DNA from: a virus
Reading direction: 5' to 3' (one strand)
IMG/VR virus record: IMGVR_UViG_3300006104_000909
Coordinates: 1 to 25,802 of that record
DNA length: 25,802 nt
Numbering within the stretch: position 1 is the first letter of the stretch; each line of letters begins with the position of its first letter. The translations under genes were made by a program, and so were the position numbers. Below the pieces are notes generated by a model. The model worked only from the letters and a program-made list of their open reading frames with translations. It searched no databases and had not been told where the DNA came from. Below, one piece after another: positions 3,001 through 19,773 of the stretch.

Positions 3001-5853
3001 ACAAATACCAGTACAGGGTTCTTTATTTCTATAGACGGTAACGGCAATCACTATGCTTTTAGTACTGGCGGATCGAATATTATTGACGCTGGAACCGTAC
3101 CTTTAAATACATGGGTTCATATAGCAGTAACAAAACAAGGATCATTAGTATCATTATATGCAAATGGTATTCTACAAGCATCAGCAACAACATCAAACGT
3201 ATTCAGTGATGGTGGTTTGATTCTTGGTAAACTATACTGGTCAGCAGCTAATAATTTAAATGGCTATATGTCAAATCTTCGTATAACAAATGGTGTAGCA
3301 AGATATACATCTAACTTCACTGTTCCTTCGCAACCATTTGGTTATATCACAGACTCTTCAGCTGATCCAGTATGGAATAAAACAGTATCTGAATTATCAT
3401 TGAATGGTAATCTAACTGATGTATCTGGTGCAATTCAATCATATTATAATAACGGCTATTCTTCTGCTTATTTTAATGGATCAGCAGTATTATCTACAGC
3501 AAATAATGCAGCATTCCAGTACAGTGGACAATTTACAGTAGAATGTTTTGTATTTCCAACAAGTTATACAATTAGTAGTTATCCTGGTTATCTATTTGAT
3601 AGTAGATCAGGAGGAGGAACAGCTGGATTTGGTTTACAGTTTAATACATCTGGACAATTACAATTCCAATATCAGGCTGCATCACTCGGAACAACAACTG
3701 CATCAGTTCCATTAAACACTTGGAGTCATGTTGCAGCAACAAGAAATAGCAGTAATGTTATAACTGTCTGGATTAATGGTGTTGGTAATGTTATTGGAAC
3801 ATTAGCACTTAATTTCACCGATGGAACAATGAATATTGGTCAATCAGCACCATCTTCATCATATAAATATGTTGGTTATATGCAAGATTTTAGAATAAAT
3901 AATACAACAGCATTATATACAGGAACATTTACACCACCAACGAGTCAATTAACAGTAGGCACAGGTACATCAGGATTATTCCATCTAAATGGTAATATTC
4001 TTGATTATTCCGGTAATAATGTTGTATTAACAAACACTTCAGTAACATATAGTCAACCAATAAACTCCAACGTATTTACTGGTCCGGTTAATTCCGGCTC
4101 AGGATCAGGATATTTTAATGGTTCTGCATATTTAACAGGTGGAACTGGATCAGGAACTGCATTTGGAACTAATGCATTTACTATAGAATTATGGGCATTT
4201 CCATTATCTGCAGGAACAAATAATTGTATTCTTGACACCAGAAATGTTAACACGTCATCAAATGGATTAATGTTTAGATGGAATACAGCAGCTGGACAAA
4301 TTTTAATATATAACGGAGCAATTGTATTAACATCAACAATCAATGCTGTTTTAAATCAATGGAATCATATTGCAGTTGTTAGAAATTCTTCAGTAATAAC
4401 ATTATATATTAATGGTATTGTTGCAGGAACAACAGCAAACTCAACTAATTATACTGATAGCTCACTTGTTATAGGAAACTTCCAGGGTGGTGGTGGATTA
4501 TTTACTGGTTATATGCAAGATGTTCGTGTTGTAAATGGAACTGCAGTTTATACTGGTACATTCACGCCACCAACAGCAGCTTTAACAGCAGTATCAAATA
4601 CTACTGCATTATTTCATTTATATAATAGTGCAGCAGATTCGAGTACAAATAATTTACAATTAGTTAACACTTCTGTCACATTCTATCAGCAAACACCAAC
4701 ATTAAATTCAACATATTTTAATGGTTCTGCTTATTTGTCTTTACCTACAGTACAAGTAACAAATATACAACCTGGTCTACAAGGTCCATATACACTAGAA
4801 ATGTGGATTTATACAAATCAAATAGGAACTGCAAAAACGATATGGGAACGCGGCGGTGGTGTTAATAATTGGAACGTTGCTGGTGGCATTCAAATTCAAA
4901 TTTATTTAAATACATCTGGAACAATTGCATATCAATGGTATTCCGGAACAGGTGTAGCGACAATAACAAGTAGTGCTGCAATAATAACAAATACTTGGTA
5001 TCACCTTGCAGTAACATATGATGGGACCACAACAACATTATGGATTAATGGAGTTAGTACAGGAACACCATTAACATCTGTTTATACAGCATCAGCATCA
5101 CCAACAATAATATCATTTGCTGCTGATACAACACTTAATACACAAATGTTTACAGGAAACGTTGCATTATTTAGATATAGTAGATTCCAAAGATATTCTT
5201 CAACATTTGTTCCACCAACATCTTATCAGACTGCATTACCAACAACTTATGATCCATATTGGCAGGATGTAACATTTATGCCACGTGCATCCATAACTGG
5301 TGGTTCTGATGTATCAGGAAATGCCTTAGTATTAACAAATGTGGCAACAACTATTAGTGCAACAAGTAAACAAGATACTTATGCATGGGTATTTAATGGA
5401 ACATCAACATTATATACAGCTACAACAACAGCAACACAATTTAGTGGCGATTTTACTATGGAAGCATGGGTATATCCAACAACTATTGGTACTAATCCAA
5501 TTATTATTGGGGGTATTAATTCTGGTGTTCAAGTTTATCTACCAACAGGAACATTTATTCCGCACTTGTCAATATCTGGCGGTGCAAACGTAATTACTTC
5601 ATCAACACCATTGACACAAAACGCATGGAGCCATGTTGCGGTGGTTAAACAAGGTGGAAATTCAACAATGTATATAAATGGCGTATCTGTTGGAACCTCA
5701 ACAGATGCCAATAATTATACAGTTAATGGAAATGTTGGTGTGGGTACAGGATTTACTGGTTCTATAGCTGGATATAGATTAACAAAAGCGGCAAGATACA
5801 TTGCTAATTTTACACCACCAACCACACCATTCTTAACTGTCGGTGCAGTATAA
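1..5853 (+). CDS. Giant LamG-repeat tail-fibre-like protein 1 (5' truncated by window edge)
   Basis: The reading frame is open from base 1. A GTG at 22 is not the real start, because the first residues align with the end of the N-terminal domain of the two downstream paralogues, so roughly 140 residues lie outside the window. Nine Laminin-G/concanavalin-A-like jelly-roll modules follow, beginning near nt 97, 736, 1390, 2045, 2722, 3364, 3964, 4597 and 5251. Each is about 210-220 residues. A typical module has a DPxWN or TTALFHL opening, an (A)YFNGS strand, a GDFTxExW core, a W-x-HVA-x-x-R segment, a VNG turn and a closing GYxxxxRIxxxARYTxNFTPPT. There is no signal peptide or membrane segment in the visible part. 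By family knowledge these folds bind glycans or proteins, so a role in a receptor-binding virion fibre is inferred. It ends at TAA, 46 nt before the next paralogue. Confidence 0.85.
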   Translation, partial: AGTSTSVVHLIYTSTNTWVVDNYKGIVSQPIPDPFWNNVVLSMPLNGSIQDISGNNLAFTNTGGVSTQSPQLFGNQSVYFSGNTTYASSAYNASNWCSADITIEAWAYFTAAPSVTSMIMILGNSAPNNVWFGVQNNLMPTASWNSQTVITGTTAITLNKWHHFAQVRQGTLGMFFVDGVLIGTSSWTVNTLTSAGICLAGYYGNATYGGYYYMANARVTTGIARYVTNFTIPTNVFPSSLDNTYDPVWNDVTFRPSAVTLSDLSNNNIPLYFYGTPSTSKSITIQDSASFYFNGSSSMNYAPGGTIAAVPSAPAQFYGDFTVEFWINNQNSTAGYIFGTDSTSSTTGILLAINASNIITVNVSSATVILTTTGTAPVGVWTHIAMVRLGGILMVYANGVNVGSVANSTIFTDTKLAFGAGANSFGEGTKNCYMSGIRITKFARYTANFTVPYQTTSSLPSSFDPYWNETTLLLGFENNLTDQSNVSLAMTNTNVTYTALSTLFAGPKFGAAGCAYFNGTAASYITVANTGNATKFNGDFTIECWHYPTSLSVGGGLISTNITSINRVTGITMYCQGSKLSIYQNSANIITGTTTMTINNWYHCAVTRQGSTVTLWLNGVSQGSAVLSTALTDGGLLVGATNSLTSGSDLCQGYVQDVRVVNGIAVYTSAFTPPTSTLTAITNTTALFHLDTGALVDSSINGLIATNNSTLVTCFNNLQGSYAAYFNGSNAYAQPTTLPQNAFTGDFTIECWVYAVALPGTGGLSPIVQAFSSGSSSTGFLYCLYNSGGTTYLSIDFGGSFHSTTATITAGSWYHCAFVRQGAANTLYVNGIGTNVLNNSAAYPDTNTYFQIGGAVLYSVYFNGYIDNFRVTKYARYTANFNLSTPPTYLTNGLTTTVAPVISSTTVDPFYTNVTALLPLNGTTADYSGNNLPLTNTAVSFVTPQPTKFNSQVAYFNGSTNYLTGPTGAATKFYSDFTVEFWTYVTSTATNPTFICTMTGTNTSTGFFISIDGNGNHYAFSTGGSNIIDAGTVPLNTWVHIAVTKQGSLVSLYANGILQASATTSNVFSDGGLILGKLYWSAANNLNGYMSNLRITNGVARYTSNFTVPSQPFGYITDSSADPVWNKTVSELSLNGNLTDVSGAIQSYYNNGYSSAYFNGSAVLSTANNAAFQYSGQFTVECFVFPTSYTISSYPGYLFDSRSGGGTAGFGLQFNTSGQLQFQYQAASLGTTTASVPLNTWSHVAATRNSSNVITVWINGVGNVIGTLALNFTDGTMNIGQSAPSSSYKYVGYMQDFRINNTTALYTGTFTPPTSQLTVGTGTSGLFHLNGNILDYSGNNVVLTNTSVTYSQPINSNVFTGPVNSGSGSGYFNGSAYLTGGTGSGTAFGTNAFTIELWAFPLSAGTNNCILDTRNVNTSSNGLMFRWNTAAGQILIYNGAIVLTSTINAVLNQWNHIAVVRNSSVITLYINGIVAGTTANSTNYTDSSLVIGNFQGGGGLFTGYMQDVRVVNGTAVYTGTFTPPTAALTAVSNTTALFHLYNSAADSSTNNLQLVNTSVTFYQQTPTLNSTYFNGSAYLSLPTVQVTNIQPGLQGPYTLEMWIYTNQIGTAKTIWERGGGVNNWNVAGGIQIQIYLNTSGTIAYQWYSGTGVATITSSAAIITNTWYHLAVTYDGTTTTLWINGVSTGTPLTSVYTASASPTIISFAADTTLNTQMFTGNVALFRYSRFQRYSSTFVPPTSYQTALPTTYDPYWQDVTFMPRASITGGSDVSGNALVLTNVATTISATSKQDTYAWVFNGTSTLYTATTTATQFSGDFTMEAWVYPTTIGTNPIIIGGINSGVQVYLPTGTFIPHLSISGGANVITSSTPLTQNAWSHVAVVKQGGNSTMYINGVSVGTSTDANNYTVNGNVGVGTGFTGSIAGYRLTKAARYIANFTPPTTPFLTVGAV

Positions 5854-5899
5854 TGTTTAAGATAAATATAATGACAATTTCAATATTTGAGGTGATTCA

Positions 5900-8800
5900 A
5901 TGACGTTCACAAAAGTTACATCCGACTTAATTAATACATATTCCAGTGGATCCGGTTCGGCAGTAGCTAACCAAATCGTTGCCTTAAATGGTTCTGCAGT
6001 ATTGCCAGCAGTAGATGGTTCGCAATTATTAAATGTTTCTGGAACAGGTGGTGCTTCATTAACATGGAACACAGTTACAGCAAACACAACAGCGTCAATT
6101 AATAATGGATATGTTTGTAACTCAACATCACAAATCACAATAACATTACCATCTTCACCATCAGTAGGAAATGCTGTTGAAGCAACAAGTATAGCAACAG
6201 GTGGATGGTTTATATTGCCTGCAAGTGGTCAAACAATATATTATAATGGCTTATCAATAGTATATCCAACTGGATTAACTGGCGGTCAAAATACATCTGC
6301 ACATCTTGTATATATGGGTAGTAATACTTGGTATGTTGATTATGCTTCTACATCTGTAGATACAGTATGCGATCCATTCTGGAACAATGTTTCTATTTTA
6401 ATACCAGGTAATACAGGAACTGTCCCAACAGTAGAATCTAGTGGTAATGGGCTATCATTAACAAATAGTGGTGTAGTTTCTACTACAGGACCAACAAAAT
6501 TTGGTATTTCATCCTCATTATATTTTGGTGGATCTGGTACATATATGTCTTTATCTACACAAGGTCAAAATGTCATGAAATTTTATGGCGATTGGACTAT
6601 CGAATGGTGGATGTATTATTCAGTTATGCCTACTGGTGCAACATTTATGTCACAAAGAAGTGGTTCAACAACCACAGGATGGTTGATTCAAACAGCATCA
6701 GCAACAACAATGAAAATTCAAAATAGTGCAACATCATATATTACATTTAATACACCTCCAGCGGGACAATGGAATCATGTTGCATTTACATATCAAAATG
6801 GAACTTTATATGCTTTCGTTAATGGTATCATGCAGGGTAATTTTCAGGCGGCATTAACATTCTCTGATGGTTATTTAAATATCAATTATGATGTTTTTTC
6901 AGGTGCAAATTCAGGGTTGACTACTCCCTGGTACATGCAAAATTTAAGAATTTCAAAAGTTTGTCGTTATGCATCCAATTTCACAGTTCCGGCGAATACT
7001 TTCCCAACAATCGGTGAAATCAATGCTGATCCTGATTTAAATACAGTAACATATATGCCACGTGCAGGAAACAATATGGATTTATCTGGAAATAATCTTT
7101 CCATAACAGCTAATAATATGACCGCGTCAACATTTAGTAAACAGGACACATATTCATGGGCATTTAACGGAACAAATAGTTCATTGGTCATTACTGCACC
7201 TGGTTCAGCAACACAATTTTATGGTGATTGGACATATGAAGGATGGTATTATTTCCAGTCTTTTACAGTATCGCCCGTTATTGTTGATTTTGGATATCAG
7301 GGCGCAGGTTCTACTGCAGTATCTGGTGGATTAGTAATAACCACAGGTTCGGGAACTGGTGTAATTGCTGCAGGATCCAATGGCAGCGCTTTGTTCACAA
7401 CAGGTACTGTTTTATCTGTAGGTGTGTGGACACATATAGCATTCGTTCAACAGGGTACAATTTTACAAACTTATGTAAATGGTGTTTCTGTCTATTCATA
7501 TACGACAACAGCAGCTAAATTTATTGTCGGTACAAAATGTACAGTAGGTGCAGTAAGTAGCGGATCAAATTCATATTCAGAATATTTGAATGGTTATGTA
7601 TCAGGAATTCGTGTTTCAAAAATAGCAAGATATACTTCTAATTTCGTTCCGCCAACACAACCTTTCCCGACTGCATTACCAACTGCATATGACCCATTAT
7701 GGAATGATGTTTCAATCATGCCACGTGCGTATGCAGGCAATATTGGTCTTGATTTATCCGGTAATAATTTGCCTTTAACTTGGTATGGCACAGCATCAAC
7801 AAGCAATTCTGTATCAAAACAAGATGCTTATTCATTTTATTTTAATGGATCATCAGCATTACAATACGATTCATCAGCAGCAATTGCAGTAGCCCCAAAT
7901 ACAGCGGCACAATTTAGTGGCGATTTCACTGCTGAATGCTGGATAAATCCATCAAATTTAAATGGTGCATACTTTATGTCCACACAAAATGGTAGTGGAA
8001 CAACAGCAGGTATCAACTGGGCCATTACTGCATCTACTGGTATTATTAATTTACAATATTCATCATCAACCGCATTTTTAACAACAACAGGATCAGTTGT
8101 AGCAGGTGTTTGGTCACATATAGCAACAGTAAGACAAGGGTCTTTAATAACTGTTTATCTAAATGGTTTAAATGTTGGTTCTGTATCGATAGCAAATAAT
8201 TTCAATGAAGGTAAAATAGCATTTGGTGCGCAAGCTCAAGGTGGTACTGCTGGTACTCCATTTACTGGTTATATGTCTGGAATAAGAATTTCGAAATGTG
8301 CAAGATATACAGCTTATTTTACACCACCAACACAGCCATTCTTATCAACAGGACCGTCATATCAGTCAGTCATATCAACATCAACAGTTGATCCTTTCTG
8401 GAATAATGTTACTTGTTTGATGCCTTTAAATGGATCATTAACTGATTATTCTGGCAATGGTCTAACATTTACTGGAACAACTGGTTTAACATTTACATCT
8501 GCCCCATCATTATTTGGTAATCAGGTTGGATATTATAATGGTTCTGCAACATTAATGTCAGCATCCGCACCTGGTAACGCCGCCAAATTTTACGGCGATT
8601 TTACTGTGGAATGTTGGGCAAATTTCCCAACTTTTGCTGGAACGCCAATTTTCTTGTCAACAGTATCTGGAAATGATGCAAATGGTTTTGGTTTCGCAGT
8701 TAATACAACAGGAGCATTGTATTGTGCATATAATAATTCTTCATCATTGATTGGACCAACATCAACCACATTGGTTTTAAATACTTGGAATCATCTAGCA

Positions 8801-11800
8801 TTAACAAGACAAGGGTCAACTTTAAGTCTTTGGATTAATGGTATATTACAGACATCAGTATCATATTCAGTTGCATTATCGGATGGTAATTTAGTAATAG
8901 GAAATTATTATGCAACAGGAAATCCAATGAATGGATATCTTGCAAATATTCGTATAACAAGTGGTGTATGTAGATATACTGCAAATTTCGTTCCACCAAC
9001 CAACGCCTTCCCAACTATTGCTGATACAACTGATCCTGTATTAAATAAAACAATTGCATTGTTTCATTTAGATAATAATACAACTGATAGCTCATTGAAT
9101 AGTAAAACATATGCAGTTGGTGGTTCAGGTTCATCGTTCTCACCATTCTGTAAATTTGGTTCAAATTCATTTTATCCTGGTACAGCAGGATATATTTCTA
9201 CATCATCACCTGTTCTTGCACCAATAGGAACTGGTGATATGACATGGGAAGCATGGGTTTGTATGACAGGCAATTCATCAGGAAGTGCTTGGTCATACGG
9301 TATGATACTTAGTGACGGTGATAATTCATCGCCAAATGGTTTGGGTGTTAATAACGGCGGAACAACTCCTGCATTAATTATTGCTGGCGGCACTGTTGTT
9401 GTATCGTCATCTGCTGGTGGATTATCATTAAATGTTTGGCATCATATAGCAGCATCAAGAGTTAACGGATACTGGTCATTATATGTCGATGGTATGAATG
9501 TCGGAAATGCATCAAGTACGTCTGGACCAAATAGCTATATATATGTTGGAAACAGAGCGAATGGTAATCTAGGTACAAGTAATCTTTATATCGATGAAGC
9601 AAGAGTTAGTGCATTCGCAAGATATACATCCAATTTCGTTCCATCTACATATACAGTAACAGCACCTTCCACATATGATCCTTTCTGGAATGAGGTTGTA
9701 TTCCTACCAAGAGCATTATCCGGTAATACTGGAACAAATTTATCAGGAAATAATTTAATTTTATCATTAAATGGAACATCGACAATAGTGGGATCAATGC
9801 AGGATTCCTACATGTTCTCATTTAATGGGTCATCAAATTATCTAACAGTAACGAATCCTGGCACCATCGCATCATTTAATGGCGGCGATTTTACATGGGA
9901 AGCAAACTGGAAATTTAATTCTTTCACTGGAAATCCTGTTTTATACTCAAACATGGGTGGAAGTTGGAATACATCAGTATTCGTTGTTCAAGCAAATACA
10001 AGTGGAACAATATCAGTAGGATCCAATGGCGGCAATCAGCTTACAACAGCTAATGCAATGGTAACAGGAACAAAATATCATATTGCAGTAGTTGGAAACG
10101 GCGGCATAATGACAATTTTTGTTAATGGTCAATCATGGGGATACTGGAATTATGGTCAGTACGGTCAATTAAATAATAGTGGCGCGATGTATATGGGTAG
10201 CGCTGGTTGGGTCGCCCAGCAGTATGTTAATGGTTATGTTGATGGTATCAGAATAACAAAAGCTGCAAGATATACTGCAACATTCACACCACCATCCACG
10301 CCATTCTTAACAAACGGATTATCATATGCAGCATTATCGTCATCAACAGTAGTTGATCCATTCTGGAATAATGTTACTTATTTACTGCCTTTGAATAATA
10401 ATATTACTGATTATTCTGGTAATAATTTATCAACAACAAACACATCTGTAACATTCTCAACGAATCCAGTTAAATTCGGTTCGTATTCAGCCTATTTTAA
10501 TGGGACAACATCTAATTTAAGTAATACTTCGCCTGGTTCTTCTGTTAAATTTCCTGGAGATTTTACTATTGAAGCATGGATTTATCCAACTGCAGTTGGC
10601 GAAGCAGCAGGATCCTTTATTCTTGGTTCAGTTAATTCTGCTGGAAATCTTGGTTTCGCATTATACGGCGGCGGTTTATACCCAGCATTGGTAAATTACA
10701 ATGTCGGTTGGTTGAACACCACTACAACAGTTGCCTGCAATTTAAATGCTTGGAATCATGTTGCCGCAACCAGACAAGGAAACATAATTCAGATTTTTGT
10801 TAATGGTGTTGTCGGTGCAACTATAACAAATTCAACACAATTTGCTAATTCAACATTGGCAATAGGATATGCGCCAGGTCAAGCAACATCATATTTCACA
10901 GGATATATGTCAAATGTTCGTATAACAAATGGTGTATGCAGATACTCAGGTAATTTCACAGCACCATCACAAGCATTTGGTTATATATCTGATACAACAA
11001 ATGATCCTGTATGGAATAAAACAGTATTTGAAACTGGTTTTGAAGGTACATTAACATCGCCGGATATATCAGGTAATGGAATCACACTTACAAACAATGG
11101 TTCAGTTACATTATCAACTGCTAATTATAAAACAGGAACACAATCTGCGTTTTTCACAGGCGGTAATTACCTTAATAATTCCACCACAAGTCTTTGGACT
11201 GGCGGCGATTTTACTATGGAAGCATGGGTATATCCAACAGCAAATGGTGTTACAGGTAGTTCTATTATTTTAGCACCTTCTGGCTATGCAACATCCGCAA
11301 CAAATAATATATTCATGTCAATTCCTGCAGGAACATCTAATTTTGCTGTTGGTCTTGGCGGCGGTTCATCAGCTGGTGTAATAAGTGGTTCTGGAAATGG
11401 ATTGAATGCTTGGTCTCATGTGGCAATAGTTAAAACTGGTACAACTGTCCTATTGTTCATAAATGGGGCATATGTTAATTCCACAACAACAACTTTTGCA
11501 ACAGGAACAGGATTTGCAATAGGAACTTTACCTGCAGCGGGAGCAGCAAATGCATTCACTGGTTATATTGATCAAATAAGAATATCTTCATTTGCAAGAT
11601 ATACATCTAATTTCGTTCCACCAACATTATATACTACAGCATTACCAACAATTTATGATCCATATTGGCAGGACGTAACATTTATGCCACGTGCACAAAC
11701 AGGTAATTTAATAACAGATGTATCCGGTAATTATTTGGGTATAACAAATACTTCAGTAACAACTACAATATCAAATGCTAAACAAGATGCATATGCAATG

Positions 11801-12307
11801 GTGTTTAACGGCTCGACCAGCACATTATTAATATCTACACCAGGTTCTATGTATAATCTTTCTGGCGATTTTACCATTGAAACATGGGTGTATCCAACAG
11901 CAGTTGGTCAAACAAACGGATCATTTATTATTGGTAATTTATCAGGAACCACTACTGGTATATGGTTAGCAATAAATCCTTCAACATATACATTAGTGTA
12001 TGGAAAGCAAGGATCATCCCCAACACTAACTGCATCTACGTCTATGACTGTAAATACATGGAATCATGTTGCTTTAGTTAGACAAGGAACAACTATGACA
12101 ATGTATCTTAATGGCACTAGTGTTGGAACTATTTCTGATAGTACAAGTTATTCATCAACCGCAGTGTACATCGGTAATGTCTCAGCTGCCGGAACATATT
12201 GGAATGGTTCAATGTCAGGAATGAGAATAACAAAAGCAGCAAGATATACAGCCAATTTTGCAAATACATTGCCAACAACACCATTCTTAACCGTAGGTCC
12301 AACATAA
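5900..12307 (+). CDS. Giant LamG-repeat tail-fibre-like protein 2 (2135 aa)
   Basis: The ATG at 5900 is preceded by a GAGGTGA ribosome binding site. Residues 1-50 form a fibre-type head with the pattern NQIVALN..LPAVDGSQLLN. Residues about 52-155 form a small beta domain (LTWNTVTANT.. GYVCNS.. LPSS.. GGWFILPASGQTI.. NTWYVDYA) of a kind common in phage fibres. Nine LamG modules follow from near nt 6371, 7028, 7691, 8390, 9032, 9677, 10355, 11003 and 11657. The first 155 residues are clearly paralogous to those of the next gene, and the end of the same domain is visible at the start of the previous gene. The final module opens with DPYWQDVTFMPRA, almost identical to the last module of protein 1. 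A trimeric or fibrous adhesin on the virion is the likely role. Function and receptor are not deducible from sequence. Confidence 0.88.
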   Translation: MTFTKVTSDLINTYSSGSGSAVANQIVALNGSAVLPAVDGSQLLNVSGTGGASLTWNTVTANTTASINNGYVCNSTSQITITLPSSPSVGNAVEATSIATGGWFILPASGQTIYYNGLSIVYPTGLTGGQNTSAHLVYMGSNTWYVDYASTSVDTVCDPFWNNVSILIPGNTGTVPTVESSGNGLSLTNSGVVSTTGPTKFGISSSLYFGGSGTYMSLSTQGQNVMKFYGDWTIEWWMYYSVMPTGATFMSQRSGSTTTGWLIQTASATTMKIQNSATSYITFNTPPAGQWNHVAFTYQNGTLYAFVNGIMQGNFQAALTFSDGYLNINYDVFSGANSGLTTPWYMQNLRISKVCRYASNFTVPANTFPTIGEINADPDLNTVTYMPRAGNNMDLSGNNLSITANNMTASTFSKQDTYSWAFNGTNSSLVITAPGSATQFYGDWTYEGWYYFQSFTVSPVIVDFGYQGAGSTAVSGGLVITTGSGTGVIAAGSNGSALFTTGTVLSVGVWTHIAFVQQGTILQTYVNGVSVYSYTTTAAKFIVGTKCTVGAVSSGSNSYSEYLNGYVSGIRVSKIARYTSNFVPPTQPFPTALPTAYDPLWNDVSIMPRAYAGNIGLDLSGNNLPLTWYGTASTSNSVSKQDAYSFYFNGSSALQYDSSAAIAVAPNTAAQFSGDFTAECWINPSNLNGAYFMSTQNGSGTTAGINWAITASTGIINLQYSSSTAFLTTTGSVVAGVWSHIATVRQGSLITVYLNGLNVGSVSIANNFNEGKIAFGAQAQGGTAGTPFTGYMSGIRISKCARYTAYFTPPTQPFLSTGPSYQSVISTSTVDPFWNNVTCLMPLNGSLTDYSGNGLTFTGTTGLTFTSAPSLFGNQVGYYNGSATLMSASAPGNAAKFYGDFTVECWANFPTFAGTPIFLSTVSGNDANGFGFAVNTTGALYCAYNNSSSLIGPTSTTLVLNTWNHLALTRQGSTLSLWINGILQTSVSYSVALSDGNLVIGNYYATGNPMNGYLANIRITSGVCRYTANFVPPTNAFPTIADTTDPVLNKTIALFHLDNNTTDSSLNSKTYAVGGSGSSFSPFCKFGSNSFYPGTAGYISTSSPVLAPIGTGDMTWEAWVCMTGNSSGSAWSYGMILSDGDNSSPNGLGVNNGGTTPALIIAGGTVVVSSSAGGLSLNVWHHIAASRVNGYWSLYVDGMNVGNASSTSGPNSYIYVGNRANGNLGTSNLYIDEARVSAFARYTSNFVPSTYTVTAPSTYDPFWNEVVFLPRALSGNTGTNLSGNNLILSLNGTSTIVGSMQDSYMFSFNGSSNYLTVTNPGTIASFNGGDFTWEANWKFNSFTGNPVLYSNMGGSWNTSVFVVQANTSGTISVGSNGGNQLTTANAMVTGTKYHIAVVGNGGIMTIFVNGQSWGYWNYGQYGQLNNSGAMYMGSAGWVAQQYVNGYVDGIRITKAARYTATFTPPSTPFLTNGLSYAALSSSTVVDPFWNNVTYLLPLNNNITDYSGNNLSTTNTSVTFSTNPVKFGSYSAYFNGTTSNLSNTSPGSSVKFPGDFTIEAWIYPTAVGEAAGSFILGSVNSAGNLGFALYGGGLYPALVNYNVGWLNTTTTVACNLNAWNHVAATRQGNIIQIFVNGVVGATITNSTQFANSTLAIGYAPGQATSYFTGYMSNVRITNGVCRYSGNFTAPSQAFGYISDTTNDPVWNKTVFETGFEGTLTSPDISGNGITLTNNGSVTLSTANYKTGTQSAFFTGGNYLNNSTTSLWTGGDFTMEAWVYPTANGVTGSSIILAPSGYATSATNNIFMSIPAGTSNFAVGLGGGSSAGVISGSGNGLNAWSHVAIVKTGTTVLLFINGAYVNSTTTTFATGTGFAIGTLPAAGAANAFTGYIDQIRISSFARYTSNFVPPTLYTTALPTIYDPYWQDVTFMPRAQTGNLITDVSGNYLGITNTSVTTTISNAKQDAYAMVFNGSTSTLLISTPGSMYNLSGDFTIETWVYPTAVGQTNGSFIIGNLSGTTTGIWLAINPSTYTLVYGKQGSSPTLTASTSMTVNTWNHVALVRQGTTMTMYLNGTSVGTISDSTSYSSTAVYIGNVSAAGTYWNGSMSGMRITKAARYTANFANTLPTTPFLTVGPT

Positions 12308-12325
12308 TATTAGGGGATTAAACAA

Positions 12326-15300
12326 ATGACTTTTACTAAAGCAACTTATGACGTAGTTAATACTTATAATGGATCAGGTACAGCAACAGCTAATCAGGTA
12401 TTAGTTCTTGATGCAAATGGTAAAATACCAGCAATTAATGGTGCAAACCTAACAAATATTACTGGTGGATCCGGTGGTTTAACATGGAATACCATCACTA
12501 CAAATACATCGGCATCAGTTAATCAAGGATACATATGTAATAGTACAACCCAATTGCAAATAAATTTACCATCAACATCAACTGTTGGTAGTATAATTGA
12601 GGTAACAAGTATTAATACTGGCGGCTGGATGATTGTTCCTTACACAGGGCAAACAATAAATTATGGAACATTATCTGCATCTGGTATATATACTTTTGTT
12701 GGGTCACAATATGCATCTATGTATTTGGTATACCAAGGAAATAATATATGGAATGCAGATTATGCAACAGGAACCATAACAACCGCAGCATATGGCGATC
12801 CATTCTTTAATAATGTTACATGTTTATTACCACTTAATGGTTCAACAACAGATTATTCAAATAATGCTTTGACATTAGCAAATGTTGGAGGTGTATCATT
12901 TGTCAATAATCCAGGTAAATTTGGAAATCAGCAGGTAGCATATTTTAATGGATCATCATGGTTGGGCGCTCAGGGAACTGCACCAGGTAAAAATGCAACA
13001 TATATTAGTGGCGACTTTACAGTTGAATGTTGGTGTTATCCAACATCTCTAACTGGTGCAGCACCGGCATTTATAGAAACAAGAAGTGGTGGAAGTCAAA
13101 ATGGTATGTTGATTTGGTATAACCAATCAAATAATAATCAATGGGTATTTACAAACGTATCAGCAGATAATGCTGTTGGCGGCATAGGAACATTAGTTAC
13201 AAACGCTTGGCAGCATGTGGCTTGTACAAGACAGGGATCAAAAGTATCAATATTTGTCAATGGTAATTTGGCAACCACAGCAACTTTTACAAATAATTTT
13301 AGTCAAGGATATTTAACAATTGGTATAAATGTTGGCGGCGCATCAGGCGGTTTCACAGGTTATATGTCCAATTATCGATTAACAAATGGTGTAGCAAGAT
13401 ATACAGCAAATTTCACCCCACCAACCACTTATTTCCCCTTAGCATTAGATACAACTGCGGATCCTGTATGGAACAAAACAGTATTTGAAACTGGCTTTGA
13501 AGGTAATTTTTTAGACGTTTCGAACACATCAACATCATTATATAATAATGGATTGCCCGCAGCATATTTTAATGGTTCAACTTCATATGTGGGCGTTTCT
13601 TCACCAGGTACTGCATATAATTTATCAGGAAATTTCACAGTAGAAGCATGGGTATATCCAACAGCAGCAGGACAAGGAGGTGACACCACTATTATTGGTT
13701 CAACTACTACAAATTCCCTTAAATTTTTACAGTCTAATGGTGCATATACAATAGGTGCTGCAGTATATGGTGCATCTGCATTCATAACATCAACAATAGC
13801 AATGACACCAAATGCTTGGAATCACGTTGCATGTACCAGAAGTGGAACAACATTTAGTTTATGGGTTAATGGTGTATCTGCAGGGTCTGCTTCACAATCA
13901 GCTGCGTTTGCTTCATCTATGTTAAATGTCGGCGGTGGACAATCTTCTGCGTATTTTACTGGATATATTCAAGATGCTCGTGTAGTAAATGGAACAGCAG
14001 TTTATACGTCAAACTTTACACCACCAACAAGTCAATTGGTAGCAATAACAAATACAACTGCTTTATTCCATTTAAATTCGAATGTAACAGATTCAAGTAC
14101 AAGTAATTTAGTTGCTACAAATAATAACGTTACTTGGGGACTATTAACAAATATTAATAACGTTGTATTATATTCTCCTAAATTTGGATCAACAGCAGCA
14201 TATTTTAATGGATCAACAGCATATTTAACAGTAGCAACACCAGGTAATGCAACAAAATTTGCTGGAGATTTTACTCTTGAATGTTGGACTTATTTAACTG
14301 GCGGTGCAGGTACATATCGTGTATTATTTGAATCATTCCCAAGTACAACTGCTACAACAACCGGTTTTCAATTATATGTAAATACTTCAAATAATTGGGT
14401 TCTTGAAACAAACGCAACGGGTAATTTAATTGCTAATGCTGGTGCATCAACAATAGGTTCTTGGGTTCATGTTGCATTAGTAAGACAAGCATCAAATATA
14501 ACATTTTATTTAAATGGCACTGCTAGTGCAACTATAACAAACACAACTAATTTTAGTGATGGTGGTATAACCATTGGCAAATCATATACTGTTATTCAAT
14601 TATGGCCGGGTTATATCCAAGACTTCAGAATTGTAAATGGAACCGCAGTATATACTGCCAATTTTACACCACCAACAACTGCATTGACAGCAATAACAAA
14701 TACAACTGCATTATTCCATTTAACTACAGATGCAAGTGATAGTAGCACAAATACATTATTAGCAACAAATAATTTAGTTAATTTTGTGGGACCAAAAGTA
14801 GGATCATACTCCGCAATATTTAACGGAAGTAATTATCTGCAAAATACAACAATAACTCCTGCAAATTTTACTGGAGATTTTACAATTGAAGCATGGGTTT
14901 TCCCAACAGCAAATGGTACAGGCAATACTACTTTCTGTGTTTGTTTGGGTGGTTTTACAAGTAATACAACCGGATGTGCATCCCTTGGTCTTAATGCATC
15001 TAATCAATTAGTGGCTTATATGTCAGGTGCAACGCTAACACCATCAGCAACATTAACACTTAATACTTGGCAGCACATTGCTTTGGTTAGATCAGGATCA
15101 TTGGTGTCCGCATTCATAAATGGTGTATCAGTTGTGACCGGAACCAGTACAAATGCACTTTCTGGAACAGGTTTATGTATAGGTGCAATTTATAATACTG
15201 GTAACAATAATAATTTTATTGGTTTAATTGATCAAGTGAGAATATCGCAATTTGCAAGATATACATCAAATTTTACACCATCAGCAACAGCATATCCAAC

Positions 15301-16624
15301 AGCATTACCAGTAGCATATGATCCATATTGGCAGGATACAACATTCCAAATAGGTTTTGAAAATGGTTTCTCTGATCAATCTGGTAATAATTTAGTATTG
15401 ACAAACACTGGAACAGCAGTATGGGGACCACAATATAATGCTTCATCATCTGCATTATTTAATGGATCAACATCGTATATTTCAGTAGCAACACCTGGTT
15501 CAGCTGCACAATTTAGCGGACCATTTACTATAGAGGCTTGGATATATCCAACATCATTGGCAGTATCAGGTGGATTCAATATTATTGATACCAGAACAAA
15601 TAATACATCTGCAGCTGGTATATCATTTGGACAATATGCAGCAAATAGTCCATATCTAAATGCTTTTTGGACTGGCGGTTCAGTAACAGGAACTACAGGT
15701 GCATTGGTAGCAAATCAATGGCAACATGTCGCCTTAACAAGAAATTCATCAAATGTTATGAATATTTGGCTTAATGGTGTTTTAACAGCAACTGCAACAT
15801 ATTCAAATAATTTCTCAAATGGACAAATAAGTATAGGTCAACAATGTCCAGGTGCAGCAGCAGCGTGTTTCTTCCCTGGTTTTATGCAAGACTTTAGAAT
15901 AAATAATACAACTGCAGTTTATACCGCAAACTTTACACCACCAACAAGCCAATTAACAGCAATAACAAATACAACAGCATTATTCCACTTAACAGGAAAT
16001 GTTACAGACTCAAGTGCAAGTCCATTGGCAGCAGTAGCAACATCAATAATATTCCCAACACCAAAAACTGGTAATTATTGTGCATACTTTAATTCAACCT
16101 CATTACCATTAGCTATATCATCATCAAGTTCAATGGTATTTGGTTTGGGTGACTTTACTGTTGAAACATGGGTTTATACTACATCACCACCTGCATCTTC
16201 CCAAGTTCTAGGATTATTTGATATGCGTGGTGCTGGTGCAACCGGAACTGGTTTATTTTTTGGATTGACAGGAACAAATACGCCAGTATCAGGAAATACA
16301 CCATATTATCCATATATAGGTGTTAATGGAACAACATATTTAGTATCGTCAATCATAGCAGCAACTAATACTTGGACACATATTGCATATGTAAGACAGG
16401 GCGGAACACTTACAATTTATGTTAATGGAAAATCAGGTGGATCAGTAGCATATACAAATAATTTATCAGATTATGGCACTTTTCCTTTCTGTATCGGTGG
16501 ACAAATTGGTGGTGGTGCTAGTTATTATTATGGATTTATGGATCAAATAAGATTCACAAAAGCAGCAAGATATACCGCGCCATTTACACCGCCAACAACA
16601 TATTTGACAAATGGTCCATTATAA
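12326..16624 (+). CDS. Giant LamG-repeat tail-fibre-like protein 3 (1432 aa)
   Basis: The ATG at 12326 has an AGGGGA ribosome binding site and follows the previous stop by 18 nt, so the genes are probably one operon. Residues 1-155 are the same fibre head and beta domain as protein 2 (MTFTKATYDVVNTY.. ANQVLVLDANGKIPAINGANLTNI, then LTWNTITTNT.. GGWMIVPYTGQTI). Six LamG modules start near nt 12797, 13460, 14049, 14697, 15320 and 15967. Modules 3, 4 and 6 are of the TTALFHL subtype, module 2 of the DPVWNKTVFETGFEG subtype shared with protein 2, and module 5 of the DPYWQD subtype that closes proteins 1 and 2. The protein is therefore a shorter mosaic of the same building blocks. The TAA stop overlaps the ATG of the PilZ gene (TAATG). 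Confidence 0.88.
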   Translation: MTFTKATYDVVNTYNGSGTATANQVLVLDANGKIPAINGANLTNITGGSGGLTWNTITTNTSASVNQGYICNSTTQLQINLPSTSTVGSIIEVTSINTGGWMIVPYTGQTINYGTLSASGIYTFVGSQYASMYLVYQGNNIWNADYATGTITTAAYGDPFFNNVTCLLPLNGSTTDYSNNALTLANVGGVSFVNNPGKFGNQQVAYFNGSSWLGAQGTAPGKNATYISGDFTVECWCYPTSLTGAAPAFIETRSGGSQNGMLIWYNQSNNNQWVFTNVSADNAVGGIGTLVTNAWQHVACTRQGSKVSIFVNGNLATTATFTNNFSQGYLTIGINVGGASGGFTGYMSNYRLTNGVARYTANFTPPTTYFPLALDTTADPVWNKTVFETGFEGNFLDVSNTSTSLYNNGLPAAYFNGSTSYVGVSSPGTAYNLSGNFTVEAWVYPTAAGQGGDTTIIGSTTTNSLKFLQSNGAYTIGAAVYGASAFITSTIAMTPNAWNHVACTRSGTTFSLWVNGVSAGSASQSAAFASSMLNVGGGQSSAYFTGYIQDARVVNGTAVYTSNFTPPTSQLVAITNTTALFHLNSNVTDSSTSNLVATNNNVTWGLLTNINNVVLYSPKFGSTAAYFNGSTAYLTVATPGNATKFAGDFTLECWTYLTGGAGTYRVLFESFPSTTATTTGFQLYVNTSNNWVLETNATGNLIANAGASTIGSWVHVALVRQASNITFYLNGTASATITNTTNFSDGGITIGKSYTVIQLWPGYIQDFRIVNGTAVYTANFTPPTTALTAITNTTALFHLTTDASDSSTNTLLATNNLVNFVGPKVGSYSAIFNGSNYLQNTTITPANFTGDFTIEAWVFPTANGTGNTTFCVCLGGFTSNTTGCASLGLNASNQLVAYMSGATLTPSATLTLNTWQHIALVRSGSLVSAFINGVSVVTGTSTNALSGTGLCIGAIYNTGNNNNFIGLIDQVRISQFARYTSNFTPSATAYPTALPVAYDPYWQDTTFQIGFENGFSDQSGNNLVLTNTGTAVWGPQYNASSSALFNGSTSYISVATPGSAAQFSGPFTIEAWIYPTSLAVSGGFNIIDTRTNNTSAAGISFGQYAANSPYLNAFWTGGSVTGTTGALVANQWQHVALTRNSSNVMNIWLNGVLTATATYSNNFSNGQISIGQQCPGAAAACFFPGFMQDFRINNTTAVYTANFTPPTSQLTAITNTTALFHLTGNVTDSSASPLAAVATSIIFPTPKTGNYCAYFNSTSLPLAISSSSSMVFGLGDFTVETWVYTTSPPASSQVLGLFDMRGAGATGTGLFFGLTGTNTPVSGNTPYYPYIGVNGTTYLVSSIIAATNTWTHIAYVRQGGTLTIYVNGKSGGSVAYTNNLSDYGTFPFCIGGQIGGGASYYYGFMDQIRFTKAARYTAPFTPPTTYLTNGPL

Positions 16625-16932
16625 TGGAAAACAATAGACGACAACACCAACGATATAATCCAGATAGTGTTGTCGTCTTCATTGATAACGAAGTTGCAGA
16701 AATAATTGATATGTCCGAGATTGGTGTAAGATTTGAAAAACAATCTGACTTAATTCTCGGAAATACTTATGTAGTATGTGTGTCAGCATTTAAAGGCGAT
16801 GAACTCGATATTAATAAATCAATTGATATTGAAGCAAAAATCGTAAGAGTTGATGACAAATATGTAGCAATACAATTTATTGAACCTACACCAAAATTAT
16901 TAAAAATGTTTGAAGAACATTTTAAAAAATAA
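16624..16932 (+). CDS. PilZ-domain protein (predicted c-di-GMP binding)
   Basis: This 102-residue protein is a stand-alone PilZ domain. Both c-di-GMP contact motifs of the family are visible: RxxxR at residues 6-10 (RQHQR, preceded by another Arg) and DxSxxG at residues 29-34 (DMSEIG). These are followed by the expected beta-barrel pattern (GVRFEK.. GNTYVVCVS.. IDIEAKIVRVDDKYVAIQFIEP) and a C-terminal helix. The ATG overlaps the stop of fibre gene 3 and no good ribosome binding site precedes it, so translation is probably coupled to the fibre gene. Binding of the second messenger c-di-GMP is predicted from family knowledge. The partner or output is unknown; the position next to adhesin genes suggests a link to host surface state or to late expression, but this is inference. 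Confidence 0.8.
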   Translation: MENNRRQHQRYNPDSVVVFIDNEVAEIIDMSEIGVRFEKQSDLILGNTYVVCVSAFKGDELDINKSIDIEAKIVRVDDKYVAIQFIEPTPKLLKMFEEHFKK

Positions 16933-16933
16933 A

Positions 16934-17569
16934 TTATTTAATTAATTTCAATATAGGACGAACAGTTTCTTTACTATAACCATAATCCCATAATCTATTA
17001 TCAAAATCTTCATCATATTGACCATGATGTAATACAACATCAGTATATATTATTCTATTAGTTGATAAGTCAACAAGATCAACAACAACATCCAGATTTT
17101 TGGATAAATTTGACCATAATTTTCTTGCACCAAAATATTGTTCACGATCACCTATAAGAGACATGCCATTATTAACTAGATAGATATAAACTTCAGTAGC
17201 AATCCCCATACCACGCTTGTCTTTACGCACAAAAACTTCATTTACTCTATAAAGATTTTTATATGGAAGAACAGATTCTAGTTTATCCTGTTTTGTTAAA
17301 TCAATTTTCAATACAATATCAAATGCTTTTTTAATTTCGCCATTTTTATTAATATCTTCTAAGGTTCCAAGTATATATGAATCCATAGTTCCATGTTTGG
17401 CAAATGTATATGTTTTTTCAAGAGTTTGAATGTCATCAATAGCAATCCAAGTTTTTTCAAACATAAAAGCAGACAATGTTCCAATATGACTCTCATCTTT
17501 CCTCCAATCGCCTTCCCTAGCAATGGATTCGGCAACATTAAATTTTTTCGTAAATTCATGCATTCTCAT
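16934..17569 (-). CDS. GNAT-like protein of phage type (211 aa)
   Basis: The ATG at 17569 has an AGGAG site about 7 nt upstream. The protein starts MRM, as does the plus-strand gene at 21500. Residues 110-130 (NEVFVRKDKRGMGIATEVY) resemble GNAT motif A, the acetyl-CoA pyrophosphate loop R/Q-x-x-G-x-G/A, with R119-G-M-G-I-A. They are followed by a GARKLWSNL segment similar to the C-terminal part of small GNAT-fold phage proteins. Acetyltransferase activity is not assured, and no substrate can be named. It converges on the PilZ gene with a one-base gap, and I see no clear terminator between them. Its own promoter lies between this start and the tmRNA terminator. Confidence 0.6.
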   Translation of the reverse strand: MRMHEFTKKFNVAESIAREGDWRKDESHIGTLSAFMFEKTWIAIDDIQTLEKTYTFAKHGTMDSYILGTLEDINKNGEIKKAFDIVLKIDLTKQDKLESVLPYKNLYRVNEVFVRKDKRGMGIATEVYIYLVNNGMSLIGDREQYFGARKLWSNLSKNLDVVVDLVDLSTNRIIYTDVVLHHGQYDEDFDNRLWDYGYSKETVRPILKLIK

Positions 17570-17615: not shown

Positions 17616-17641
17616 CAAAAAAGGAGTCCGAAGACTCCTTT
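17616..17641 (-). terminator. Intrinsic terminator of the tmRNA gene
   Basis: On the minus strand a perfect 9-bp stem (AAAGGAGTC / GACTCCTTT) with a UUCG tetraloop is followed by a run of T residues (complement of 17616-17621). There is no T run on the opposite strand, so it serves the minus-strand transcript. Confidence 0.9.
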
Positions 17642-17943
17642 GATGCTACAAATATTATTTAACAGGGAATTTGTCTAACCCCGGATACTTAAGCTGCAAG
17701 GCTGACTTGGTCATCCATTGAAACATAGTTATCGTTGCTGAATGTGTTTGCACTCATTAATTTTAGTCAATTACAGCATGTGCTGTGGGAAACAACTCCC
17801 GTTTAGCGTATAGTCGAACTAACTTCTTCTATCTTTTACAATAAATCTAACCCAATTCCGACCCATAGTGAAAAATTTGGTGGATCGGGGCGGTTTCGAA
17901 CCGCCTTCTTTACTGCCTATTACATATTAGTGTAACGCCAACA
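17642..17943 (-). ncRNA. ssrA: Circularly permuted (two-piece) tmRNA precursor
   Basis: Read on the minus strand, the acceptor piece comes first (about 17943 to 17878) and ends with a T-arm GGCGG-TTCGAAA-CCGCC (17905-17889), the acceptor strand CCGATCC (17888-17882) and ACCA (17881-17878). After an intervening segment of only 13 nt (17877-17865), the coding piece starts with GGGTCGG (17864-17858), which pairs over all seven positions with CCGATCC. This pairing includes a G3-U70 wobble next to discriminator A73, the alanine identity element of tmRNA. TTTATTGT (17845-17838) pairs over eight positions with GCAGTAAA (17916-17909), giving helix P2. The coding piece then has hairpins upstream of a tag frame ending in LAA and stop. 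The order acceptor piece then coding piece is that of permuted tmRNA. Exact processed ends are not visible. Confidence 0.92.
17689..17751 (-). other. tmRNA proteolysis-tag reading frame
   Basis: The likely resume codon is GCA at 17751-17749. The frame encodes ANTFSNDNYVSMDDQVSLAA and stops at TAA (17691-17689). The N-terminal Ala-Asn and the C-terminal LAA are typical of tmRNA tags, where the hydrophobic end is a ClpXP/ClpAP degradation signal. At 20 residues it is longer than many bacterial tags. The frame shifted by one ends quickly without an AA-type end, which supports this frame. Confidence 0.82.
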
Positions 17944-17949
17944 GGACTA

Positions 17950-17978
17950 TTTATACACGAAAGGCAATTAGATGTCAA
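17950..17978 (-). promoter_or_regulatory. Consensus sigma70-type promoter of the tmRNA gene
   Basis: On the minus strand TTGACA (17978-17973), a 17-nt spacer and TATAAA (17955-17950) precede the acceptor piece, with a start expected near 17943. The -35 overlaps the TGA stop of the upstream GIY-YIG gene. The -10 region also reads TATAAATA. Confidence 0.8.
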
Positions 17979-18601
17979 GATTTAATTTTAAGTCTTTCAC
18001 GATCAAATTTCCACAGTGACTGTAAATTATCTGCGTACAACGATTTGCGTTCCATATGTCTTATACCTTCATCTAAATTAACAAGAAATCCTCCGGTCGT
18101 TCTCAATCCAAAAATATCTATTAATTTTGATTCGTACATGAATGCTTCTAATTCAGATAAACCTTCTTTGATTATTTTAACATTTATATCATCGCCAAAC
18201 ATTTTTATTTTTTGTCTGACTTTTCGATGTGTATCGTTTCTATCAAGTTCCCAAGCTCTCTTTCCAGTTCCTTTTCCAAAATAGAAAGGAAAATATGATA
18301 AACCTAATGTGGCAGCGAAAGTGGTTCGTCCATCTTTGCCTATGGCTATTTTTCTACTAGGATCACAATGAGCATATACATAATATTTCCGAGTAGGATC
18401 AAAATTCATATCGCAATATATTTTTGATATATCAAAATTAAATATTTCATTACAATCCATAAATATTTTTTGTTTTCGTTCTTTGGATGATATGTGATTA
18501 GGATCATTTTTTCGTAATTCGCCAATTCTAGACCTTAATACTCTTATTAATTTTTCGCAATCTTCCAAAGAATCAAGATCTACTTCATAATTTTTGATCA
18601 T
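17975..18601 (-). CDS. GIY-YIG family nuclease (208 aa)
   Basis: I chose the ATG at 18601 (MIKNYEVDLDSLED), which lies one base after the upstream stop (TAATATG); a longer frame from 18643 would overlap that gene. Residues 1-65 are a helical N-terminal part. Residues 73-180 are a GIY-YIG domain of the type with an insertion: YYVYAH (73-78) in the GIY position, PFYFGKGTGKRAWEL (105-119) with YFG in the YIG position and candidate catalytic R115, LSELEAFMYE with the metal-ligand candidate E157, and VNLDEG with N175. By family knowledge these enzymes make strand breaks in DNA. It is the last gene of an operon with two DUF4357-type proteins, a domain that elsewhere is fused to GIY-YIG nucleases. 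It could be a homing, defence or anti-host nuclease; which one is not decidable. Confidence 0.78.
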   Translation of the reverse strand: MIKNYEVDLDSLEDCEKLIRVLRSRIGELRKNDPNHISSKERKQKIFMDCNEIFNFDISKIYCDMNFDPTRKYYVYAHCDPSRKIAIGKDGRTTFAATLGLSYFPFYFGKGTGKRAWELDRNDTHRKVRQKIKMFGDDINVKIIKEGLSELEAFMYESKLIDIFGLRTTGGFLVNLDEGIRHMERKSLYADNLQSLWKFDRERLKIKS

Positions 18602-18602
18602 A

Positions 18603-19202
18603 TTAATTCCAGTCACCATAAGGATTTTTTGCATATGCACCAATTACCACGCTTGTTGCAACTGTTGGACTGTCAAAATAATGATTTTTTGCAAAGATGT
18701 ATTTTGATTTAGTTAAATCTAATACCAATATGCTATCAGAAATAAGAGTATTTTTTATTGTTCTTGCTTCTGCACTACCATCAACATTAAGTGATGCTTC
18801 TGATCCTTGTAGAACAGTCAAATGGTTTCTTATTTTTTCAGAATTTGACCCTTCATGAGCAATTGCTTCAGCAACAAATCCATATTTTTTATTCAAAATT
18901 ATTCTTTGTCCATGTGTAAATTTTTTTTGATTAGACTTTGCTTTTTTTCGATTTGCTTTTTTTCGATTAGGTTTAGATGGAATCTGCTGAACAGGTGGTG
19001 CATTTAATGCAGGATTAAACCCGCCTATAATAACATCTTCTGGTAATGGTGAATTATTTTGTTCGCTAATTTTTTCTATGCAATTTGGTGTCATTTCAAT
19101 ATGAAATTCTTTTGATTTTAGAATTAAAGTAAAATTTTCTTTATCTAAAATGTTAAGTATATCTGATATAAATGCTGTTATTTTTTGTGTATTTACTGAC
19201 AT
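18603..19202 (-). CDS. DUF4357-like protein B with basic linker (199 aa)
   Basis: The start MSVNTQK at 19202 is preceded by a strong AAGGAGA site. A longer frame from 19232 would overlap the upstream gene and lacks such a site. The N-terminal ~70 residues are of mixed hydrophobic type. A Lys/Arg-rich linker (NRKKANRKKAKSNQKK) follows and could contact nucleic acid. The C-terminal ~100 residues (FTHGQRIILN.. LTVLQGSEAS.. SKYIFAKNHYFDSPTVATSVVIGAYAKNPYGDWN) match the DUF4357 pattern of a GS-x-A strand, a y-x-F-x-x-d-x-x-FxSPxxAaxxvxG core and a terminal W. It is a paralogue of the gene just upstream and is followed directly by the GIY-YIG gene. DUF4357 has no firmly known activity; a specificity or nucleic-acid-binding role for the nuclease is an inference. 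Confidence 0.65.
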   Translation of the reverse strand: MSVNTQKITAFISDILNILDKENFTLILKSKEFHIEMTPNCIEKISEQNNSPLPEDVIIGGFNPALNAPPVQQIPSKPNRKKANRKKAKSNQKKFTHGQRIILNKKYGFVAEAIAHEGSNSEKIRNHLTVLQGSEASLNVDGSAEARTIKNTLISDSILVLDLTKSKYIFAKNHYFDSPTVATSVVIGAYAKNPYGDWN

Positions 19203-19218
19203 TATTTTCTCCTTAATA

Positions 19219-19773
19219 TTATTTCCATTCATGATATCCGCTAGTGCAAGATCCTAGTATGATAGAACTTGCCCTAGACATTGTATTAAAAGGGCAATCC
19301 TTAACAAAAATCATTTTATTTTTATCTGTTGGATGATCACATATAAATCCACTATCTATTAAATCTTTTTTTATGGCCTCATATCTTCCGAAAGACTGAA
19401 TAGTTTCGCAGTTATATACCTCGCTTCCTGCAGAAACAGTTAATGTGTTTGAAGCTACTTTGCCACTGGTATTGTATGATGTAATTGTTGCTCTTGCTTT
19501 TATATTTGGCTTATCGATATAAATTATTGATCCAACATTAATAAATCTTGTTTTACTGTCTCTCGCTGCAAATATGCGATTTGTTGGAATAGTAATTGGA
19601 TGTATTTGTACAGGGTTCAATGATTGTGTCTGCACTGTCTGCGTCTGCAAATTAAATTCTTGTTTAATTATTATATCGAAATCACCATCATTTATTACAA
19701 TTTTATCATTATCAAATGATGGTTTATATACATCAAATATGTGTTTTAAAAGTTTGTTATATTTTTCACCCAT
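19219..19773 (-). CDS. DUF4357-like protein A (184 aa), first gene of the operon
   Basis: The ATG at 19773 follows an AAGGAGA site. Residues 1-60 are an N-terminal region with a KIVINDGDFDIIIKQEF strand pattern that also appears, diverged, in protein B. Residues about 75-184 (FINVGSIIYIDKPNIKARATI.. LTVSAGSEVYN.. RYEAIKKDLIDSGFI.. MIFVKDCPFNTMSRASSIILGSCTSGYHEWK) fit DUF4357, with the GSE strand, the FxxxSRASSxxxG core and the final W. Similarity to protein B along the whole length indicates tandem duplication. The gene is read from its own promoter, and the three genes are separated by 16 and 1 nt. No enzymatic motif is visible, so the function is unknown. Confidence 0.62.
   Translation of the reverse strand: MGEKYNKLLKHIFDVYKPSFDNDKIVINDGDFDIIIKQEFNLQTQTVQTQSLNPVQIHPITIPTNRIFAARDSKTRFINVGSIIYIDKPNIKARATITSYNTSGKVASNTLTVSAGSEVYNCETIQSFGRYEAIKKDLIDSGFICDHPTDKNKMIFVKDCPFNTMSRASSIILGSCTSGYHEWK

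Follow-up and report, generated by a model that had tools for sequence, protein, structure and literature searches.

A phage permuted tmRNA gene recurrently paired with a viral GIY-YIG nuclease family

A circularly permuted tmRNA gene lies on the minus strand of a 25,802-nt viral contig (IMG/VR record IMGVR_UViG_3300006104_000909, positions 1 to 25,802; hereafter the window) next to a predicted nuclease gene, and this arrangement recurs: a permuted tmRNA directly adjoins the nuclease gene in 14 of the 16 distinct full-length members of the nuclease family. The tmRNA belongs to an already known kind of phage gene. The repeated pairing with a single viral GIY-YIG family is a new variant; we found no description of it in the literature searched, where GIY-YIG and tmRNA together returned only papers mentioning both words. 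The conserved nuclease neighbor, absent from an earlier sequence-only reading of the window, is the less expected of the two features. We consider it likely that a functional phage tmRNA, which would carry out trans-translation, is carried with a SegB-like free-standing homing endonuclease, which would promote homing. The observations behind this reading are the anatomy of the gene, its family match, covariation in the acceptor stem, the linkage itself, and the persistence of the tmRNA where the nuclease has been lost.

The identity of the window gene (17943-17617, minus strand) as a permuted tmRNA is firm, and comes from an Rfam covariance model together with the element anatomy (Table 1). 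In a cmscan search, RF04321 (tmRNA_permuted) matches positions 17939-17689 of the minus strand over its full length with 67.3 bits (E 3.5e-11; gathering cut-off 47 bits). RF01850 (beta_tmRNA) also matches over its full length, with 53.2 bits against a cut-off of 84, and RF01849 (alpha_tmRNA) scores 28.6 bits against a cut-off of 50; no cyano_tmRNA match was reported for the window at gathering score. The gene reaches the cut-off of no lineage subtype, beta being the best lineage-specific model though below its cut-off. A strict pattern for permuted tmRNAs has a single match in the window, and none of 100 shuffles contains one. ARAGORN makes no call on the gene, and blastn finds no match to the tmRNA region among named phages.

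In the order of transcription, a promoter-like site is followed by the 3' strand of P2, the T-arm, the acceptor 3' strand, the intervening segment, the acceptor 5' strand, the D-region, the 5' strand of P2, the tag and the terminator. Both alanine identity elements, G3-U70 and A73, are present (GGGTCGG with CCGATCC-A), and minimum free energy folding yields the T-arm and the acceptor helix (z -2.2). The D-region departs from the usual tmRNA D-loop. By analogy with two-piece tmRNA biology, the intervening segment is presumably removed from the RNA. The sequence-only reading had proposed that a phage contig carries a two-piece permuted tmRNA gene encoding a 20-residue tag of its own, and the anatomy and RF04321 support this; every structural element that it named is present in the sequence (the CCA-ending T-arm and acceptor, 7/7 pairing, P2, G3-U70 and A73, the tag, the 13-nt segment, and the terminator), and the Infernal comparison that it proposed puts the gene below the cut-offs for alpha and beta. 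Its “consensus” promoter stands only in part: a promoter-like site is found, but with 11 of 12 matching positions it is suggestive only as a promoter of the tmRNA. In the window this exact pattern has two occurrences, where 0.10 would be expected.

Table 1. Predicted features of the tmRNA-nuclease locus in the window
Feature	Position	Strand	Details	Basis
LEM-3-like GIY-YIG nuclease gene, predicted	17975..18634	-	219 aa from ATG at 18634; TTG start at 18643 possible (longer)	
Permuted tmRNA (ssrA) transcription unit	17617..17943	-	predicted start ~17943, through terminator	RF04321 and element coordinates
Putative sigma-70-like promoter	17950..17978	-	TTGACA-17-TATAAA	sequence, 11/12
P2 helix, 3' strand	17909..17916	-	GCAGTAAA; pairs with 17845-17838	8 pairs, 2 of them G-U
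T-arm	17889..17905	-	GGCGG-TTCGAAA-CCGCC, canonical loop	5/5 pairs
Acceptor 3' strand, A73 and encoded CCA	17878..17888	-	CCGATCC, then ACCA	7/7 pairs with 17864-17858, including G3-U70
Intervening segment	17865..17877	-	AATTTTTCACTAT, 13 nt	sequence
Acceptor 5' strand	17858..17864	-	GGGTCGG, 5' end of coding piece	element coordinates
D-region and P2 5' strand	17838..17857 (P2 strand 17845-17838)	-	D-region GGGTTAGAT (usual: GGNTTCGAC); P2 strand TTTATTGT	sequence
Tag frame	17689..17751	-	resume codon GCA to stop TAA, ANTFSNDNYVSMDDQVSLAA, 20 codons ending SLAA	translation; aligned to RF04321 resume/stop region
Intrinsic terminator	17617..17641	-	9-pair stem, TTCG loop, T run	sequence

Is the gene viral or bacterial? 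The lack of a permuted-model match together with missing acceptor-stem pairing in homologous contigs, or proof that the contig is a bacterial chromosome with this gene as its ssrA, had been named beforehand as fatal to the reading; the RF04321 match is significant, and the contig is classed as viral (an IMG/VR virus record, a fragment). The 25.8 kb hold no capsid or terminase gene, as might be expected if the contig were bacterial and the gene the host ssrA, but this is exceedingly improbable given the virus record, three giant LamG proteins with matches to PHROGs of phage tails and baseplates, a phage-type RNA ligase (phrog_14301), and a nuclease family that has no match in 84,980 bacterial and archaeal species genomes. 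A bacterial ssrA is rejected on the virus record and the phage fibre genes. The nearest relatives of these fibre genes among named phages are weak. The three giant proteins (1943, 2135, and 1432 aa) lie in tandem at 22-16624 and consist of Laminin_G_3 repeats, with 9, 9, and 6 stretches matched; two of the three share a similar MTFTK N-terminus. At 16624-16932 there is a PilZ-domain protein (Pfam E 1.9e-7), unusual for a phage, with a possible link to cyclic-di-GMP. The next gene (16934-17569) finds no named phage by tblastn and only two IMG/VR contigs (L003 and L004), neither of which has an RF04321 match. Two adjoining genes with C-terminal DUF4357-like domains (18603-19773) lie directly upstream of the nuclease. 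The window proteins that were scanned include no SmpB.

Permuted tmRNAs are an established component of phage genomes. Two-piece forms have been reported in Melnitz and pelagiphages; 53 of the 133 unique tmRNA structures from 402 phage genomes were two-piece, 50 of these 53 were aquatic, and a tmRNA of any form was present in 2.3% of phage genomes (PMC9004378). A search of other phage genomes, suggested by the sequence-only reading, turned up 97 further IMG/VR stretches that fit the strict pattern, with tags of mostly ~10 to 30 residues. The novelty that had been implied for a permuted tmRNA in a phage is overtaken by that publication and these stretches. Across 98 viral permuted tmRNAs with 20 distinct acceptor stems, positions 4-7 are paired in 98.8%, whereas exchanging strands at random among stems gives 58% (at most 77.5% in 2000 shuffles); hence, the RNA structure has been kept by compensatory change in the viral copies. 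This bears on whether the window gene is decaying, having been captured lately from a host and now serving no function. The unusual D-region and the fragmentary contig would fit such a history, but the stems, identity elements, tag frame, and terminator are all intact and divergent relatives keep their pairing by compensatory change, making decay very unlikely.

Several viral copies have features of their own. Pseudanabaena phage PA-SR01 (L143; MT234670) carries a permuted tmRNA at 2705-3100 (RF04321, 31.9 bits) whose T-loop is broken by a 227-nt group-I-like insert (2716-2942) with U-G at the 5' splice site, P3 AUGCC/GGCAU, P7 GACU/AGUC, and a terminal G; taking the insert out restores a TTCGATT loop. 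Rfam reports no group I intron for this phage and does not recognise the insert, and the forms listed in PMC11915505 do not include one that is both permuted and intron-bearing. CCA is not encoded after A73 in L130 (2697-2950), L132 (3690-3930), and L143 (2956-2962), which have ACCC, ACTA, and ATTT. In Pseudanabaena phage Pam2 (L117, 3230-3475) and L108 (3740-3900), permuted tmRNAs of cyanobacterial type are present but unannotated; their tags are ANKNQIVKFARKSTPVAVAV and ANNNIVKFARKSALVAVAV, their T-loops are non-canonical, and their intervening segments are 5 nt long. Rfam misses both. Present tools thus cover the linked tmRNAs poorly: at least two (L108 and Pam2) escape Rfam, and that of the window escapes ARAGORN.

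The tmRNA match in the window starts 35 nt past the stop codon of the nuclease gene, on the same strand. Relatives of the nuclease were sought by protein, irrespective of tmRNA, with the exception of L157, to which its tmRNA had led. The 16 distinct full-length members, including that of the window, are all viral and form one clade with 100/100 support. The Pfam domain LEM-3_GIY-YIG matches 12 of the 16 aligned members (best 4.3e-5), and the family alignment conserves YVY, FYxGKG (FYIGKG), R, H, E, and N. The window's own protein carries the residues conserved in GIY-YIG nucleases, and its AlphaFold model, a confident one (pLDDT 85), has a beta-beta-alpha-beta-alpha core as in the GIY-YIG fold. 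For this protein, however, the GIY-YIG assignment is weak: Pfam gives it no LEM-3_GIY-YIG match, and Foldseek of the model against the PDB gives no match at E <= 0.001. Similarity to phage homing endonucleases (phrog_314) is weak for the window protein (E 0.0012) and is found for 5 of the 16 members; tblastn gives a match to a BcepSaruman homing endonuclease, 37% over 49% of the query (E 5e-7).

The adjoining tmRNA was identified by Rfam in the window, L005, L006, L106, L120, L124, L126, L127, L130, L131, L132, and L133, by pattern in L157, and by eye in L108 (7/7 acceptor pairs and a cyanobacterial-type tag). Only L007 and the C-terminally disrupted L129 lack one. Near-copies (L121-123, L125, L128, L134-136, and L181) were left out of the count, and setting L157 aside gives 13 of 15, which would arise by chance with a probability of ~1e-15 even if each locus had a 5% chance of a tmRNA; for comparison, the published proportion of phage genomes that have any tmRNA is 2.3%. 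Three arrangements occur. In most loci the tmRNA is downstream of the nuclease on the same strand; in L131, L133, and L157 it is upstream on the same strand; and in L130 it is upstream on the opposite strand. The nuclease is the sole gene, besides the tmRNA, that the linked loci have in common, and linkage through broad synteny is rejected on this ground. Since the arrangements vary and no other gene is shared, the association has been rearranged or has formed more than once. The recurrent adjacency suggests that nuclease and tmRNA may travel together. The linkage is one-sided, in that a close nuclease copy accompanies just two (L157 and L181) of the viral permuted tmRNAs that the DNA pattern picked out. 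G3-U70 is kept in 16 of the 16 tmRNAs tabulated around the family.

Two of these loci have further peculiarities. In L005, a release-factor-like protein (1991-2419; Pfam RF-1, E 6e-18), possibly a second ribosome-rescue gene, is encoded ~390 bp upstream of the nuclease-tmRNA pair. The tmRNA intervening segment of the same contig (3531-3580) holds a stretch that, judged by eye, nearly repeats the beginning of an ORF (506-560, MPQKPRL...) located ~3 kb upstream, and that looks like an inserted gene fragment. The tmRNA of L120 (3595-3845) and its nearly identical counterpart in L121 (3076-3380) have unusually long tags of 29 and 28 residues, which differ at both ends yet remain in frame, keep the stop, and end in LAV.

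Does the tmRNA depend on the nuclease? Contigs L156 and L157 are 98% identical on both flanks, and L156 lacks 588 bp of the nuclease gene, in frame, so that 14 codons and the stop remain; its tmRNA is in place, with 6 differences from that of L157 in 330 nt. Pam2 likewise retains only a C-terminal nuclease remnant and keeps its tmRNA. Conversely, in L007 the nuclease is followed directly by a terminator-like hairpin, without a tmRNA. Either partner can therefore be lost, and the tmRNA has no obvious need of the nuclease; L156 and Pam2 make a strict requirement unlikely. The same cases weigh on the idea that the tmRNA is functional and the GIY-YIG protein works with it, in precursor processing or in cutting stalled mRNAs, rather than in homing. 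Tight adjacency, and the overlap in several loci between the end of the nuclease gene and the start of the tmRNA match, are what such a partnership might produce. It is nevertheless unlikely, because each gene is found without an intact copy of the other, most viral permuted tmRNAs have no nuclease, and order and strand vary. Such survival of tmRNAs without the nuclease points to a benefit that they provide themselves.

The T-loops of the linked tmRNAs vary in sequence. Canonical loops occur in the window, L005, L130, L131, and L133, and altered ones in L106 (GTGACTG), L120 (GTGGTG), L126 (GGCAGA), L132 (AGCGTCA), L006 and L127 (TATCGTAT), and L108 (GGGTAGCATAA). L106, L120, L126, L006, L127, and L132 have no UUCRA, and their T-stem, acceptor stem, and G3-U70 are largely intact. 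The UUCRA loop is lost in 7 of 15 tabulated linked tmRNAs and in 2 of 86 viral tmRNAs picked otherwise (Fisher p ~1e-5), a biased comparison given that the control set was conditioned on a canonical D-loop. The cleavage motif of SegB is RAWTSGAAC (PMC13096335). In our own reading, the other strand of this motif would correspond to a tRNA T-loop. Hypothetically, altered T-loops might protect the donor copy from the nuclease; the canonical T-loop of the window speaks against a universal version of this idea.

How might the two genes act during infection? By analogy, host RNase P and enzymes that process 3' ends would split the transcript in two, one piece with the T-arm and acceptor and one with the coding part, and the acceptor stem and P2 would keep the two joined. 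The RNA would be charged with alanine by virtue of G3-U70 and act with host SmpB on stalled ribosomes, and the 20-residue tag ending in SLAA should address its products to ClpXP-type proteases. Ribosomes would thereby be kept free during infection, and a putative takeover of ribosome rescue by the phage is plausible. The nuclease, most likely a free-standing homing endonuclease, would cleave DNA and may help the tmRNA locus to spread or persist, a role that SegB has in phage tRNA regions. The steps that we infer are processing, aminoacylation, tagging, DNA cleavage, and homing. The RNA could instead serve as a decoy or a spare part that counters host defences, or inhibit the host tmRNA, with no role in rescue. 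There are precedents, in that a tag-less tmRNA-like RNA of phage DS6A inhibits the endogenous tmRNA (PMC11915505) and phage tRNAs counter tRNA-cutting defences (PMC13096335), but a decoy would need no tag, and in the window and its linked relatives the tag frame is intact, resume and stop codons included; we regard this role as improbable. Under the preferred reading, of a functional tmRNA carried with a homing endonuclease, a mobile-element partner would explain part of the spread of tmRNAs without a fitness benefit from every copy. The nuclease also offers a concrete target, with one purified protein and one DNA substrate.

Four known systems resemble this locus. First, the permuted tmRNAs of RF04321 (PMC11915505) have the same gene order, with the T-arm and acceptor upstream of the coding piece, as well as P2, G3-U70, and a tag ending in AA; the window gene differs in its short 13-nt intervening segment, unusual D-region, and 20-residue tag. 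Second, the two-piece tmRNAs of Melnitz and pelagiphages are likewise complete permuted ssrA genes in phages (PMC9004378). The Melnitz gene is reported to have a glutamine riboswitch and to adjoin a transcription coactivator gene (PMC9004378), whereas the window gene adjoins a GIY-YIG gene and has its own promoter-like site. Third, group I introns with homing endonucleases in tmRNA genes (PMC11915505) are also selfish elements tied to a tmRNA gene, but the window nuclease is free-standing beside the gene, outside any intron. Fourth, SegB of T-even phages (PMC13096335, PMC2988022) is a phage GIY-YIG gene linked to genes for translation RNAs, in its case tRNAs. In various phages this free-standing homing endonuclease is linked to tRNA genes (PMC13096335, which makes no mention of tmRNA), and the present family matches this pattern in that 14 of 16 members, from divergent phages, adjoin the RNA-gene region. 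In contrast to SegB, the window nuclease is LEM-3-like, only weakly similar to phage homing endonucleases, a putative DNA-cleaving and homing enzyme, and linked to a tmRNA.
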